Shown: positions 3,818-63,372 of the stretch, piece by piece
Numbering within the stretch: position 1 is the first letter of the stretch
How the letters are laid out: every line of letters begins with the position of its first letter
NCBI RefSeq assembly: GCF_025486315.1
Contig: NZ_JAOOPY010000008.1
Location: 62,001 to 126,000, forward strand
DNA from: Variovorax sp. N23
GTDB lineage: Bacteria; Pseudomonadota; Gammaproteobacteria; Burkholderiales; Burkholderiaceae_C
Direction of reading: 5' to 3'
Length of the DNA: 64,000 nucleotides
Notes under the pieces: model-generated
What the model was told of the DNA's origin: nothing
The model's database searches: none
Seen by the model: the letters and a program-made list of their open reading frames with translations, nothing else
Position numbers and translations under genes: made by a program

Positions 3818-4869
3818 TCGGCCAGCAGCGCTTTCACGCGCGTCTCGATGAAGGCCCGGTCTTCGGGCTGGTGGACGGCACTGGGGTTGCCCGCGCGGTG
3901 GCCCCACACCGACGGAATGGGCTGCAGGTCGCCGTGGCGCAGGTGCGACAGCTCGGCCCGGTTGTCGTCGACCTGGAAGTACAGGTCGTGGTCGCCGGGC
4001 ATCAGCAGCACGCGGGCGCGGATGGCGCCGAGCGCCTTCTTCAGGTCGCCGCCGTACAGGGCGTTGGCGCTGATGTCGCCCGTCTGCCAGGTGCGGAACT
4101 GCGCCAGCAGGTCGGCCGGGTCGCGGCGGGCGAAGGTGGTCTCCCAGTGGCTGACGAGGTAGTCCTCCAGCGACGAGGCGCCGAGCTTTCGCCACATCTC
4201 CTCGCGGTAGAAGGTCTGCGACAGCGCCCAGCCCGCATAGACGCGGCCCATGGCGCGCAGGCCGCGCACCGGCCGCTCGGTGAACAGCCCGTCGCGGTAG
4301 GCCGTATCGGCCATCAGCGCGTGCGCTGCACCTTCGATGAACACGCGGTTGTGCGGCGCACAGCGCGCGGCGCCGCACACCACGGCGATGCGGTCGACCG
4401 CGTCGGGGAACAGCGCCGCCCAGTGGTAGGCCTGCATGGCGCCCATCGACCAGCCGTAGACCAGCGCCACCCGCTCGATGCCCCACAGCTCGGCCAGCAT
4501 GCGGCGCTGGACATGCACCGCGTCGTAATAGGTGACGTCGGGGTAGCGCGTGCCCACGTCGGGCCAGGGCGTGTTCGACGGCGAACTCGACAGCCCGTTG
4601 CCGAACAGGTTGGCGATGACGATGAAGTACTTCGACGGGTCGAGCGCGCCGCCCTCGGCCACCATGTGCTCGATGTCGGTGTGCTGCGCGGCGTACGAGG
4701 TCGGGTAGAGGATGACGTTGGAGCGCTCGGCATTCAGCGTGCCGAAGGTCTTGTAGACCAGGGACATGTGGCGGAAGGTGCGGCCGGACTGGAGCACCAC
4801 GTCCCCGGCCTGGAACACGCCCGTGTCGGGGCGTGCCGCATGGGCATCGGGTGCGGGCGGGGCGGTCAT
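3814..4869 (-). CDS. MetX-like alpha/beta-fold hydrolase or acyltransferase
   Basis: A 351-residue cytosolic alpha/beta hydrolase related to homoserine O-acetyltransferases. Nucleophile elbow GWSMG places Ser141; the acid is in PGDHDLYF (about D293 or D295) and the histidine in VWGHRAGNP (H324). It is the first gene of the operon, starting at ATG 4869. It lacks the usual MetX neighbours (metW), and sits with a desaturase and an amidohydrolase, so a biosynthetic methionine role is unlikely. It more probably acts as a hydrolase or acyl transferase on a catabolic substrate; this is inference. Confidence 0.82.
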   Translation of the reverse strand: MTAPPAPDAHAARPDTGVFQAGDVVLQSGRTFRHMSLVYKTFGTLNAERSNVILYPTSYAAQHTDIEHMVAEGGALDPSKYFIVIANLFGNGLSSSPSNTPWPDVGTRYPDVTYYDAVHVQRRMLAELWGIERVALVYGWSMGAMQAYHWAALFPDAVDRIAVVCGAARCAPHNRVFIEGAAHALMADTAYRDGLFTERPVRGLRAMGRVYAGWALSQTFYREEMWRKLGASSLEDYLVSHWETTFARRDPADLLAQFRTWQTGDISANALYGGDLKKALGAIRARVLLMPGDHDLYFQVDDNRAELSHLRHGDLQPIPSVWGHRAGNPSAVHQPEDRAFIETRVKALLAE

Positions 4870-4912
4870 GGTCGGTGTCCTTTTTTGGTGCTTCGATCGT
4901 GCGGCTGAATAA

Positions 4913-59287: not shown

Positions 59288-59426
59288 GCCCACCGCAGGC
59301 CGCGAACTGAGGGACAAAGCCCCCTCTGTTCCCCCCATGGGGAACGGCACCCGCGGCCTAGGATGCGATCTCCTTCATCCCGCCACGCGGTATGCCGACC
59401 CCTGGGCGCATCCGTCTGCACATGCC

Positions 59427-61961
59427 ATGTCCGGAACTGTCGTTTTCAAGGGCGTGACGTTCTCTCCCGACGTTGCGCCGCTCGTCCCGCGCATGGCGCT
59501 GGTGAATGACCATCGCGAGTCGCTGCAGCGGCTGGAAGACACCTGGGGCCAGCTCGGTCTGCTCGCGCAGATGACCGGCAGTGGCACGTCCATCGCCGCC
59601 ACGGGCGCGAAGTTCCACGCCCTGACCGGCGTGCTGCTCGACGCCCTGGCCCAGCGCCTGCGCCAGGACGCCCTGCGCTCGGCGCGCGCCAAGGCGCAGA
59701 CCCTGGTCGACCTCCTGGTGCGCAACCTGTTCGAGCGCACCGCCGACGTCGGCTTCCTCGCGCTGGACGACGCCCTGGTGAGCGCCGCCGCATCGACCGA
59801 GATCGACGCGACGCAGGCCACCGCCCTGCACAACCATCTGAATTCGTACCAGGCGAAGTACAGCGTGTACGACGACATCCTGCTGCTCGCGGCCGACGGC
59901 AGCGCCCGCGTGCGCCTGCGGCAGGACGCCCCCGTGCAGGCAGACGCCGGCCTCGCCCAGGCGGCGCTGCGCAACGAGGCGCCCTACCTCGAGCGCTTCG
60001 GCCCATCGCCGCTGCTTGGCGGACAGGACGGCCTGCTCTTCTGCGCCCCGGTGCGCACCCCCGGCGGCCACGCCGCGGCGGTGCTGTGCCTGAGCTTCGC
60101 GCTGCAGAACGAGATGGCGTCGATCTTCGCGGCGCTCAGCGCGGGCGACGAGACCTCGGTGCTGCTGCTGCTCGACGCACAGCGCACCGTGGTCGCCAGT
60201 TCCGACGTGCACCAGGTCGGGCTCGGCGTGGTGCTTCCGACGCCACGCCCGGGCGGCACCACCCTGCGCTTCGCGGGGCGCGAGTACCTCACGGTGCAGG
60301 CGAACTCCGACGGCTACCAGGGCTACGTCGGCCTGGGCTGGGCCGGCTGCGTGCTGGTGCCGCTCGATGTCGCGTTCGACGGCAGCACAGCACCGATGTC
60401 GATGCCCAAGAAAGACATCGGCGCCCGGCTCTCCGCCGGCAACAGCCTGTTCGGCGAAGCGCTGCGCACGATCCCGATCCAGGCCAAGGGCATCCAGCGC
60501 GGCCTGGAGCGGCTGGTGTGGAACGGCCAGTTGCGCCTGCGCAAGGAGGACGGGGGCGACGCGTCCGGCACCGGCTTCGCGAACGTGCTGCTGGAGCGCG
60601 TCACCGCCACGGGGCGCCGCATCAGCCAGGTCTTCGAAGCCGCGATCGAGCAGCTGCAGCAGTCTGCCGAAGCCTCGGTGATCGACGAGGTGCGCGCCTG
60701 CGCGGCACTCGGCAGCGACATCCTGGACCGCAGCTTCTACGAGCGCGCGAACGACTGCCGCTGGTGGGCCCTCGACGAGACCCTGCGCGCCGCCGCGCGC
60801 GACCGCACGCCCGCCGCGTGCGCCCAGGCCTCGAAGGTGCTCGCGCACATCAACGGCCTGTACACGGTGTACGCGCAGATCCTGCTGCTCGACGAGCACG
60901 GCAAGGTGCTCGCCTGCTCACGCACGCCGCAGGAGGGCACCGTGGCGACGCCCTGGATGTCGGCGGCCGCCCTGCTGCGCGACGAGAGCGCCTACGTGCG
61001 CGCGGCCTTCGGCCCCTCGCCCTTCTACGACGGCCGCGGCACCAGCATCTTCGCGGCACACGCCCACACCGGCACGGGCCGGGGCGGCACCGTGGCGACC
61101 GTCTTCGACAGTGCGGTGCAGATGGAAGCCATGCTGCGCGACGTGCTGCCGCGCGACGCGGCGGGCGCGCCGTTGCCCGGCGCCCTGGCGCTCTTTCTCA
61201 CCCGCAACGGCACCGTGGTGGCCAGCACCGACGCGCGCTGGCAGGCCGGCGACGAAGCGCCGCTGCGCCAGCGCTGCGAATCGCTGGCACGGGGTGCCTC
61301 CAGCGGCGCACTCGTCGAGCTCGGCGGCGTGCTCCATGCGGCCGGCATCGCCATGACGGGCGGTTACCGTGAATACGACAGCGCCGGCAGTTGCGGCCCC
61401 GACGACATGGCCTGCCTGGTGCTGTCGGCCCTGGGCGAGGTGGCCGCCGACGAGGCCGGCGCCCTGCCCGTGCGCTTCGCGCCGGCACCGGATACGCACG
61501 CGCCGCGGGACGACGAACGCATCGGCTTCGCGAGCGTGCGGCTCGGCCCCCAGTGGCTGGGGCTCGCGACGGCCCAGGTGGTCGAGGCGATCGAGGCGCC
61601 ACCCTCGGCCGCCGGCGAGGGACGCGGCGGCATCGTCATCCACGACGACCGGGCGCTGGCCGTGATCGACCTCCATCGCCCTGGCCGCGACATGGGCCGC
61701 GAAACGGGCGGCGTAACGGCCCGCCGCGACGCCCTGCTCGTCGTCTGCGAAGACGCGAACCAGCGCCGGGTCGTGCTGCGCGTGGACGAACTCGGCCCGG
61801 TCTTCGACGTGCCGCGCTCGGCCCTGCGCCCGCTGCCGCCGGGGCTCGAGGCACGCGACCCGCTGGCCACCGCGCTGGTGGACGGCGGCGAAGGGCCGAT
61901 GCTGACGGTCATCGACATCGATGCGCTGCACGCCATCGGACGAGCCGCGGCGCGGTCGTAG
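59427..61961 (+). CDS. Soluble double-sensor protein with C-terminal CheW domain
   Basis: An 844-residue protein with no transmembrane helix. Two similar sensor units (about residues 70-320 and 420-640) each contain a helical part (SARAKAQTLVDLLVRNLFER; ARDRTPAACAQASKVLAHIN), a YDDILLLAADG or YAQILLLDEHG strand and a PSPLLGGQDGLLF or PSPFYDGRGTSIF pocket, suggesting a duplication of a Cache-like module. Residues about 695-840 are a CheW fold (RIGFASVRLGPQWLGLATAQ, VVEAIEAP, RRVVLRVDELGPVFDVPR). It should couple a cytosolic ligand to a chemosensory kinase. A short GC hairpin (61965-61979) follows its stop. Confidence 0.8.
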   Translation: MSGTVVFKGVTFSPDVAPLVPRMALVNDHRESLQRLEDTWGQLGLLAQMTGSGTSIAATGAKFHALTGVLLDALAQRLRQDALRSARAKAQTLVDLLVRNLFERTADVGFLALDDALVSAAASTEIDATQATALHNHLNSYQAKYSVYDDILLLAADGSARVRLRQDAPVQADAGLAQAALRNEAPYLERFGPSPLLGGQDGLLFCAPVRTPGGHAAAVLCLSFALQNEMASIFAALSAGDETSVLLLLDAQRTVVASSDVHQVGLGVVLPTPRPGGTTLRFAGREYLTVQANSDGYQGYVGLGWAGCVLVPLDVAFDGSTAPMSMPKKDIGARLSAGNSLFGEALRTIPIQAKGIQRGLERLVWNGQLRLRKEDGGDASGTGFANVLLERVTATGRRISQVFEAAIEQLQQSAEASVIDEVRACAALGSDILDRSFYERANDCRWWALDETLRAAARDRTPAACAQASKVLAHINGLYTVYAQILLLDEHGKVLACSRTPQEGTVATPWMSAAALLRDESAYVRAAFGPSPFYDGRGTSIFAAHAHTGTGRGGTVATVFDSAVQMEAMLRDVLPRDAAGAPLPGALALFLTRNGTVVASTDARWQAGDEAPLRQRCESLARGASSGALVELGGVLHAAGIAMTGGYREYDSAGSCGPDDMACLVLSALGEVAADEAGALPVRFAPAPDTHAPRDDERIGFASVRLGPQWLGLATAQVVEAIEAPPSAAGEGRGGIVIHDDRALAVIDLHRPGRDMGRETGGVTARRDALLVVCEDANQRRVVLRVDELGPVFDVPRSALRPLPPGLEARDPLATALVDGGEGPMLTVIDIDALHAIGRAAARS

Positions 61962-62001: not shown

Positions 62002-62295
62002 ATGACGCGCATGAACCGCCCCACCGCCATCCCCACCGTCCAGATCGACAACGACCGCGTCACCGTCACCGAATGGCGCTTTCCGCCCGGCGCCGAAACC
62101 GGCTACCACCGCCACGGCATGGACTACGTCGTGGTGCCGATGACCAGCGGCACGCTGCTGCTGGAAACGCCGAACGGCGAGGTGCGCAGCCCCCTGACCG
62201 CCGGCGTCTCGTACACGCGGCTCACGGGCGTCGAGCACAACGTGATCAACGCCAACGAATACGAGTTCGTCTTCGTGGAGATCGAGCTGAAGTGA
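62002..62295 (+). CDS. Small cupin protein
   Basis: A 97-residue single cupin_2 barrel: RFPPGAETGYHRHGMDYVVV holds a His-x-His metal pair near residue 35, and TPNGEVRSPLTAGVSYTRLT then VEHNVINANEYEFVFVEIEL complete the barrel. ATG 62002 or 62011 (MTRMNRP). It lies directly before a MerR-type promoter whose -35 starts one base after the stop. No substrate is known. Confidence 0.8.
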   Translation: MTRMNRPTAIPTVQIDNDRVTVTEWRFPPGAETGYHRHGMDYVVVPMTSGTLLLETPNGEVRSPLTAGVSYTRLTGVEHNVINANEYEFVFVEIELK

Positions 62296-62326
62296 TTGAC
62301 CCGTCCCCTGGGGACGCCCCTATAAA
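62296..62326 (+). promoter_or_regulatory. MerR-type promoter with 19-bp spacer and spacer palindrome
   Basis: TTGACC (62296-62301) and TATAAA (62321-62326) are separated by 19 bp, two more than a normal sigma-70 spacer. The spacer contains CGTCCCCTGGGGACG (62302-62316), a perfect 15-bp palindrome. Long spacer plus palindrome between -35 and -10 is the hallmark of MerR-controlled promoters, and the gene downstream is a MerR protein. Confidence 0.7.
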
Positions 62327-62355
62327 GGGCGCATCCAAAGCTGACGAGGTGACCC

Positions 62356-63372
62356 ATGGGCTCCACGAGTCGATATCTACATCCGTCCGAAGCCGCCCGG
62401 CAACTCGGCGTATCGGTCAAGGCGCTCCGCGTGTACGAGCAACAGGGCCTGATCGTGCCGACCCGTTCGTCCGTCGGATGGCGGATCTATGGGCCCGAGG
62501 ACATGCAGCGGGCCACGCAAGTCGTGGCACTGCGCGCCCTCGGGCTCACCCTCGCACAGGCAGCGCGCGTGCTCGATGGCCATGCGCCGTGCATCGAACC
62601 TGCACTGGTCGAGCACCAGGCAGCGCTTGAAGCACGCATGCGCGAGATCTCGGGCATGGTGGGCCAGGTACAGGCCTTCCGGCATTCCCACTCGCACGGC
62701 GAAGCCCCGGTTCAGCGCCGAGAACGCCCAGCGCTTCGCGTCGTGTTCGAACTCCCATGGCCCTGGAACGGCGAAGTCTTCGAGCTGCAGGACATCCGGG
62801 CGATCAACTACATCGTCGGCCCGCTGTTCAGCGGCAAGACGCGCCTGGCGCAGCGCCTGGCCGCGACCTTGCCGAATACGGTCTTCGTCGGATTGGACCG
62901 CGCGGCCGAGGGTGCAGCCGCCGCCAAAGCACGGCTGCGCGCCGACGCCGCGTTGAGCGCCCGGGTCGCGACACACATGGCCTTGCTCGCCGAGCAAGGT
63001 GCGACCGCCTCGGACGCCTTGCTGGCCCTGGTCGTCGAACTGGACACCGAAGGCCCCGCTGCGCTCGTCATCGACATGATCGAGCAGGGGCTCGATCAGG
63101 CGACGCAGGAAGCCCTCGCCGCCAACCTGCGTCGACAGGGCGCCCATGCGCGGCCGCTTTTCTGCCTTACCCGCTCCTCGTCCCTGCTGAACCTGCGGGT
63201 CGTCGGGCCCGACGAGACGGTGATCTTCTGCCCACCGAACCACAGCCCTCCCTTCCGCGTCGCGCCGCACGCTGGCGCGACGGGCTACGAAGCGGTGGCG
63301 ATGTGCCTGGGCACACCGCGGGCGCGCGCACGCACAGAAGGTGTGGTGGCCTGCTGGTCGCAGGCGGCTTGA
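62356..63372 (+). CDS. MerR regulator fused to a P-loop ATPase domain
   Basis: A 338-residue protein. Residues 1-75 are a MerR helix-turn-helix (AARQLGVSVKALRVYEQQGL, then RIYGPEDMQRATQVVALRAL). Residues about 120-330 are unlike normal MerR sensor tails: IVGPLFSGKTRLAQRLAATL is a Walker A, and PAALVIDMIEQGLDQ a plausible Walker B with Glu, plus FCLTRSSSLLNL. The remaining residues (CPPNHSPPFRVAPHAGATGY) are unassigned. It should be a nucleotide-dependent autoregulator of its own 19-bp-spacer promoter. I do not recognise a named subfamily. Confidence 0.8.
   Translation: MGSTSRYLHPSEAARQLGVSVKALRVYEQQGLIVPTRSSVGWRIYGPEDMQRATQVVALRALGLTLAQAARVLDGHAPCIEPALVEHQAALEARMREISGMVGQVQAFRHSHSHGEAPVQRRERPALRVVFELPWPWNGEVFELQDIRAINYIVGPLFSGKTRLAQRLAATLPNTVFVGLDRAAEGAAAAKARLRADAALSARVATHMALLAEQGATASDALLALVVELDTEGPAALVIDMIEQGLDQATQEALAANLRRQGAHARPLFCLTRSSSLLNLRVVGPDETVIFCPPNHSPPFRVAPHAGATGYEAVAMCLGTPRARARTEGVVACWSQAA

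Follow-up and report, generated by a model that had tools for sequence, protein, structure and literature searches.

A MerR-type regulator carrying a predicted ABC-like P-loop head and a conserved 19-bp-spacer promoter in Variovorax and other Proteobacteria

What might a MerR-type regulator respond to when a nucleotide-binding domain stands where its sensor should be? MerR proteins are described as sensing metals, redox signals, and drugs in the available part of PMC9909328. We analyzed a 64,000-nucleotide stretch of the genome of Variovorax sp. N23 (contig NZ_JAOOPY010000008.1, positions 62,001 to 126,000; here called the window), near the end of which a preliminary description had placed a MerR protein with a P-loop domain, transcribed from its own MerR-type promoter and perhaps under ATP-dependent control. 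We asked what the added domain is, whether the promoter belongs with the gene across its relatives, how the family is distributed, and which mechanism would best account for these features.

A MerR DNA-binding domain joined to a P-loop head

The fusion gene and the parts of its product are as follows.

62356 to 63372, plus strand: gene for the fusion of a MerR domain with an ABC-like head, 338 aa (open reading frame list, homolog comparison)
62377 to 62580, plus strand: MerR winged helix-turn-helix (HTH) DNA-binding domain, about residues 8 to 75 (Pfam MerR_1, phmmer)
62584 to 62694, plus strand: long dimerization-type helix, residues 77 to 113 (AlphaFold2 monomer model)
62737 to 63345, plus strand: predicted ABC/SMC-type nucleotide-binding head, about residues 128 to 330 (predicted model, Foldseek, VIA)
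62818 to 62841, plus strand: Walker A motif GPLFSGKT, residues 155 to 162 (invariant positions in homologs)
63061 to 63096, plus strand: Walker B and D-loop equivalent ALVIDMIEQGLD, residues 236 to 247 (homolog alignment, ABC exporter alignment)
63169 to 63177, plus strand: H-loop equivalent T272-R273-S274, with no His (TRS in all 49 homologs; exporter alignment)
63229 to 63243, plus strand: CPPNH, residues 292 to 296, a possible ligand, metal, or thiol site together with Cys317 (homolog conservation)
63304 to 63306, plus strand: Cys317 (invariant in 49 of 49 homologs)

The N terminus is a MerR-type winged HTH. Pfam MerR_1 matched residues 11 to 74 with 60.1 bits against a cutoff of 21.6, and phmmer aligned the HTH half with PDB sequences of TipA, CueR, and other MerR-family chains, the best of which was TipA (2vz4, E = 6.9e-8). 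The long helix at residues 77 to 113 is present in the AlphaFold2 model of the 338-aa protein, which is a model of the monomer only. No Pfam family scored above its cutoff outside the HTH. Likewise, the NCBIfam equivalog cutoff for MerR metal sensors (CueR, ZntR, CadR, and MerR) was not reached, with a best score of 38.4 bits against 143. Judged from its sequence, the window protein is a MerR-family regulator in which a P-loop domain replaces the usual metal or drug sensor. The preliminary description had proposed just this replacement, with a Walker A and a probable Walker B motif, and it is borne out by the MerR_1 match and by motif residues that do not vary among 49 homologs.

The nature of the P-loop domain emerged mainly from its predicted fold. 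AlphaFold2 gave a pLDDT of 83.7 and a pTM of 0.60 for the whole protein, and 86.8 and 0.85 for the head domain alone. Foldseek ranked ABC proteins first; with the whole protein as query, MerR-family chains were among the best 50. The best VIA match was to 9a5y_B (Z = 12.8; 178 of 212 residues at 3.5 Å), an entry that is itself an integrative model, and the SMC3 head followed closely (Z = 12.5; 174 residues at 2.9 Å); among the 50 matches listed, VIA returned ABC-type or SMC heads with Z of 11 to 13. On the predicted model, the domain is a compact ABC/SMC-type head with the core fold of that class.

Assignment to the ABC rather than the AAA proteins follows from this predicted structure, as sequence support is weak. 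SMC_N touched 11 of 17 family members (best E = 1.9e-4), fewer than AAA_22 and AAA_33, which touched all 17, again weakly. We rejected AAA_33, AAA_16, and AAA_22 as the true family because their matches to the window protein fell below the gathering score and the fold comparison favored ABC/SMC heads. A profile search of PDB sequences was headed by methyltransferases (E = 3.7e-5), but these covered 56 residues beginning within the P-loop, and we took them for chance matches; SMC heads stood below them in the same search, at E = 0.066 to 0.46 and beyond. Alignment to single sequences with hhalign yielded nothing useful.

Conservation within the family separates residues that ABC proteins use for binding from those that they use for hydrolysis. 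Walker A residues G155, L157, S159, G160, K161, and T162 do not vary in any of the 49 homologs compared, nor do D240 of the probable Walker B motif ALVID (residues 236 to 240), E243, and L246, and so the Walker A motif and Walker B Asp of an ABC/SMC ATPase domain are present throughout. At residue 241, the position of the ABC catalytic Glu, 41 of the 49 homologs have Met and 8 have Leu. This register comes from a six-frame hmmsearch that placed DMIEQGLD against DEATSALD of an ABC exporter from the same genome, at a low overall score of 12.0 bits. The same low-scoring alignment set TRSSS opposite the AHRLS region of the exporter; the His of the H-loop is absent there, TRS occurring in all 49 homologs, and a one-residue shift of register does not bring in a His. 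At the sequence level, the homolog alignment contained no recognizable LSGGQ signature or Q-loop, which makes a canonical ATP sandwich dimer doubtful.

The head is probably a poor ATPase, weakly hydrolyzing or nonhydrolyzing. Because the hydrolysis residues of ABC proteins are absent, the "ATP-dependent" control of the preliminary description is more likely to involve binding of nucleotide than its turnover. A further set of residues, C292, P293, N295, and H296 of the CPPNH motif, is also invariant in 49 of 49 homologs. Over 48 aligned rows, mean pairwise identity was 0.62 in the ABC-like part, 0.69 in the HTH, and 0.43 in the long helix.

The promoter of the fusion gene and its putative operator

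Upstream of the coding sequence lie the following elements.

62296 to 62301, plus strand: -35 box TTGACC (all 36 homologs have TTG; letters 4 to 6 occur in 34, 35, and 35 of them)
62302 to 62320, plus strand: 19-bp spacer of a MerR-type promoter (spacing kept in homologs)
62302 to 62316, no strand assigned: operator dyad CGTCCCCTGGGGACG, with arms CGTCCCC and GGGGACG around a T, centered on spacer base 8
62321 to 62326, plus strand: -10 box TATAAA (mostly GATAGG- or GATAAA-like in relatives, some of them poor)
62346 to 62352, plus strand: probable ribosome-binding site GAGGTGA (sequence; a GAGGTGA-like motif precedes many homologs)

A spacer of 19 or 20 bp containing a palindrome is the hallmark of MerR-type promoters in the available text of PMC1526738, where the length is 19 bp for MerR and CueR/HmrR of proteobacteria and 20 bp for ZntR. 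The window's promoter has this geometry. Its palindrome, CGTCCCCTGGGGACG, consists of two seven-base arms that match completely around a central T (7-1-7). For the 36 homologs whose 5' end was present, we searched the 260 bases upstream with a consensus of 18 letters and found sites with at least 15 of the 18 letters before 33 homologs; the remaining three scored 13, 13, and 11 and are weaker matches. Across the 36 homologs, a dyad centered on spacer base 8 was complementary in 198 of 252 cells, compared with 128 of 252 for the next best center. The second letter of the -10 box, an A, stood at the 19-bp spacing in all 36. Some -10 boxes in the family are poor, such as CATGCT and CATGAC. Conservation rose steeply at TTGACC and dropped past the -10 box. 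The site lay 58 to 73 bases before the matched start, except in L008 (116 bases), whose own start codon is 18 codons earlier than the matched one. These 36 rows are not independent, since 12 are Rhizobiaceae-type records and two, L005 and L011, come from one genome.

Because the consensus had been derived from the 36 sequences themselves, we used 15 homologs outside that set as a test. A site with 14 to 18 of the 18 letters preceded every one of them, 58 to 71 bases before the matched start, with the -10 A in place in 14. Among 3,000 random windows drawn from homolog loci, 9 scored 14, none scored 15, and 43 scored 16 to 18; the last group presumably represents windows over true sites. In the 5.29-Mb genome of strain N23, the operator pattern occurred once without mismatch. 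This single occurrence, together with the 19-bp site before all 36 homologs of the first set and all 15 of the second, indicates that the putative operator is more than a chance arrangement. The preliminary description of a perfect 15-bp palindrome within a 19-bp-spacer promoter thus stands at 62296 to 62326, and its conservation extends well beyond the window.

Two variants were noted in passing. In the locus L024, the true -35 box is preceded at a distance of about 20 bases by another, incomplete TTGAC / GGCCCTGGG stretch, possibly a duplicated half of the operator. The genome G243 encodes two very similar copies of the gene, L005 and L011, which lie on separate contigs and are each preceded by a promoter variant richer in AT.

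Sites away from the fusion gene were few. The genome of strain N23 contained five further sites at three mismatches, compared with two for a reversed control. One (L047) has GATACG at 19 bp and sits between two transporter-permease-like open reading frames, pointing backwards along them. Another, L049 (G000:C34:41827, outside the window), combines TTGACG, a 20-bp spacer, CATAAT, and a GC-rich dyad; the five open reading frames around it matched no Pfam family, and the site is a possible second target or some other MerR-type promoter. The other three lack a good -10 box. We also scanned 20 genomes of relatives, corresponding to 17 loci of the contig scan and three of the window's own taxonomic family. 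The site preceded the family gene in 18 of the 20. The two exceptions at scan stringency, G243 and G798, are in line with the weaker sites that they carry. The same 20 genomes yielded three extra sites, all without a good -10 box, and seven for the reversed control. By these sequence scans, the operator appears largely private and autoregulatory. Given how few other operator sites occur in the genomes of strain N23 and its relatives, the regulator most likely controls mainly itself.

Distribution of the family and its gene neighborhoods

The preliminary description had held that ATP-dependent control of a MerR protein would be uncommon and had called for a search for other MerR proteins with the same domain. 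That search succeeded: the MerR-P-loop fusion has a patchy distribution across Alpha-, Beta-, and Gammaproteobacteria, with 48 to 61% identity in the aligned set. A scan of genome contigs found 32 relatives among 56 candidate stretches. Of these, 18 were Rhizobiales/Hyphomicrobiales as assigned from record titles, and the remainder included Caulobacteraceae, other Alphaproteobacteria, Burkholderia, Achromobacter, and the gammaproteobacterium Pinirhizobacter. Within the window's own taxonomic family, 7 of 399 genomes (its own among them) carried the gene, two of the seven in degraded form. The corresponding figures were 5 of 398 genomes for its phylum, two of these being weak matches (E of about 5e-5), and 10 of 385 for the class of an alphaproteobacterial carrier, one of them weak. 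Strong matches in the phylum and class scans all began within the first five query residues, and therefore all carry the MerR part. A weak phylum match, L054, was discarded, as it seems to be an AAA protein of no relation that has GPLGSGKT in common with the query. In a plasmid collection, 7 of 152 records covered at least 80% of the query, from Variovorax, Burkholderia, and Caballeronia. The earlier view that the protein is unusual stands. No description of a MerR-ABC fusion appeared among the literature matches listed, a set represented by titles and abstract starts in which subscription journals are thinly covered.

Several copies are broken. Two come from the scan of the taxonomic family: L009 matches residues 113 to 327 within a 243-aa open frame that has no start codon before the match, a loss of the N terminus, and L010 has an in-frame stop; from their sequences, both look like remnants. 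The reading frame changes at the P-loop in L039 (5001 to 5971) and later in the gene in L029 (5001 to 6020). All four of these broken copies may reflect sequencing error. Taken with the patchy distribution, they suggest gain and loss.

Among viral contigs, there was one relative in 152 candidate stretches. This homolog, on the 23-kb contig L087, has the same promoter over the 301 upstream bases compared, and the contig may derive from a real phage or be bacterial sequence that was binned wrongly. Models of defense systems gave weak matches to the family through the HTH (mad1, 23 of 23) and the ATPase parts, and no defense context was seen among the neighbors sampled.

The window's own neighbors do not travel with the gene. 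Immediately upstream is the small cupin gene that the preliminary description had pointed out, with a stop codon (62293 to 62295) that directly abuts the -35 box; an amidase gene lies downstream on the opposite strand. We searched 50 homolog loci (3.6 to 13 kb) with tblastn at E = 0.01 and found no match to the window's cupin, acetyltransferase, amidase part, or CheW/Cache protein. The position of the cupin gene is as described, but a link with the fusion gene is not supported; with no relative in the 50 loci, we regard it as an incidental bystander. The CheW/Cache protein, 874 aa long and encoded at 59337 to 61961, is an unusual combination in its own right, having a C-terminal CheW-like domain (36 bits), subthreshold similarity to dCache, and, by eye, two similar sensor-like halves.

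Among the loci of the contig scan, recurrent neighbors were mostly confined to a rhizobial synteny group, in which Clp protease, HupE/UreJ, DUF2076, QueF, and cation-efflux genes reappear. In this group, the region 1 to 5 kb downstream of the fusion gene contains HupE/UreJ genes in 6 loci and cation-efflux genes in 8. An upstream cluster of GGDEF-EAL proteins (11 loci) also includes the Microvirga locus L012, outside the rhizobial group, and was the sole recurring cluster noticed to reach beyond it; GGDEF-EAL is a very common domain pair. In L016, a gene for a heavy-metal P-type ATPase is divergent to the homolog, and a separate promoter of the CueR type precedes it (TTGACC, 19 bp, CATTTA, with TTC..GGAAGG arms; 4800 to 4880, minus strand). 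Neighbors sampled elsewhere were diverse, comprising 10 proteins, one of which was the window's amidase, and then 10 more, two of them without a family. Apart from L016, no metal genes were seen among the neighbors sampled in nonrhizobial loci. GNAT acetyltransferase genes lie near the homolog in L012, L057, and the window, at differing places, and those of L012 and L057 have no detectable similarity to the window's acetyltransferase.

Candidate mechanisms and their bearing on MerR regulation

Comparison with known systems narrows what the fusion might do. Like the metal sensors CueR/HmrR, MerR, and ZntR, the window protein has an HTH, a long helix, and a palindrome in a long promoter spacer. 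Unlike these sensors, which have a short metal-binding C terminus, it has an ABC-like head of about 200 residues, a GC-rich 7-1-7 dyad, and no conserved efflux target. The likeness to regulators of the TipA type (and AlbA and SkgA) is that the gene is probably its own target. Their ligand domain is also large, but it has a different fold and no P-loop, whereas the window head is ABC-like. TipA is reported to activate its own gene and others in the available part of PMC9909328. With ABC nucleotide-binding domains and SMC heads, the window head shares its predicted fold, Walker A, the Walker B Asp, and a D-loop-like GLD; unlike them, it has Met or Leu for the catalytic Glu, lacks the H-loop His and a recognizable signature, and is fused to a MerR domain. 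DNA-binding regulators with a P-loop NTPase part exist among AAA+ enhancer-binding proteins and STAND regulators of the MalT type, but their NTPase folds, DNA-binding domains, and activation mechanisms differ from those of the window protein. Enhancer-binding proteins are treated as P-loop NTPase regulators in the available text of PMC7175178.

We favor, with modest confidence, a mechanism in which an ABC-like head that binds nucleotide, and hydrolyzes it weakly or not at all, would operate the DNA distortion typical of MerR proteins at the promoter of its own gene. A MerR-type dimer would sit on the dyad inside the 19-bp spacer, and the long helix would hold two ABC-like heads side by side. 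The intact Walker A would bind nucleotide, and the heads would change their mutual arrangement with nucleotide state, with a second ligand at C292/H296/C317, or with both. Their movement would pass through the helix to the HTH domains, and the HTH pair would then kink and untwist the over-long spacer, switching on its own gene. Since none of the homologs compared has the catalytic Glu or the switch His, the head is more likely to be a binding switch than a turnover ATPase. We advance more tentatively the narrower proposal of a new MerR subfamily whose degenerate ABC head senses nucleotide itself (the ATP/ADP ratio or a nucleotide-derived signal), with closing of the heads driving the DNA distortion in a one-gene, self-activating circuit.

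Other readings place the signal or the output elsewhere. The strongest rival, which we think somewhat unlikely, is a protein comparable to TipA/AlbA that acts by itself in sequestration or tolerance, whose head would bind a toxic or signaling small molecule while the MerR part raised its own synthesis, nucleotide being structural or part of the ligand. A largely private operator and the lack of a widely conserved neighbor are as expected for such a protein, patchy presence and degraded copies would suit it, and the available text of PMC7762955 presents the TipA class as resistance systems that are minimal and autoregulated; the invariance of Walker A in 49 of 49 homologs argues instead that nucleotide has a working role. 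Next in strength is a metal signal. The P-loop might be a relic, with metal or thiol chemistry at C292/H296/C317 doing the regulating and nucleotide irrelevant, given that these three residues are the same in all 49 homologs and that metal and redox sensing is common in MerR proteins (PMC9909328, available part). Downstream of rhizobial homologs, the HupE/UreJ genes of 6 loci and the cation-efflux genes of 8 would likewise fit a metal signal instead of nucleotide, and so might the divergent P-type ATPase of L016. Yet Walker A is just as invariant as the Cys/His set, that P-type ATPase has its own CueR-like promoter, and the neighbors sampled in the other nonrhizobial loci included no metal genes, and we consider a relic unlikely.

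The remaining alternatives concern the chemistry of the head and the reach of the operator. True hydrolysis, in which E243 (three residues past the Walker B Asp) or another residue replaces the catalytic Glu and turnover times or resets the switch, would give a reason for the invariance of both D240 and E243 in 49 of 49 homologs, but it appears quite improbable in the face of Met or Leu at position 241 in all 49, no His in the H-loop region, and no recognized signature motif. It also seems unlikely that autoregulation is only feedback within a wider regulon reached through more degenerate sites or half sites. The excess of three-mismatch sites in the genome of strain N23 over the control (five versus two) and the -10-like boxes of L049 and L047 point in that direction; against it, L047 points backwards between permease-like genes and L049 has no Pfam family around it, so that no target gene is apparent, and the extra sites in the 20 relatives' genomes (three) fall below the control count (seven).

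If the narrower proposal of a degenerate ABC head sensing nucleotide is true, it would represent a so far undescribed coupling of an ABC dimer cycle to the untwisting of a sigma-70 promoter. The single conserved operator makes the idea of a nucleotide-gated MerR protein directly testable, and designers of synthetic circuits could use the fusion as a component that responds to nucleotide. For the family itself, an ABC-type sensor head would join two well-studied switches, ATP-driven dimerization and promoter distortion, in one polypeptide.
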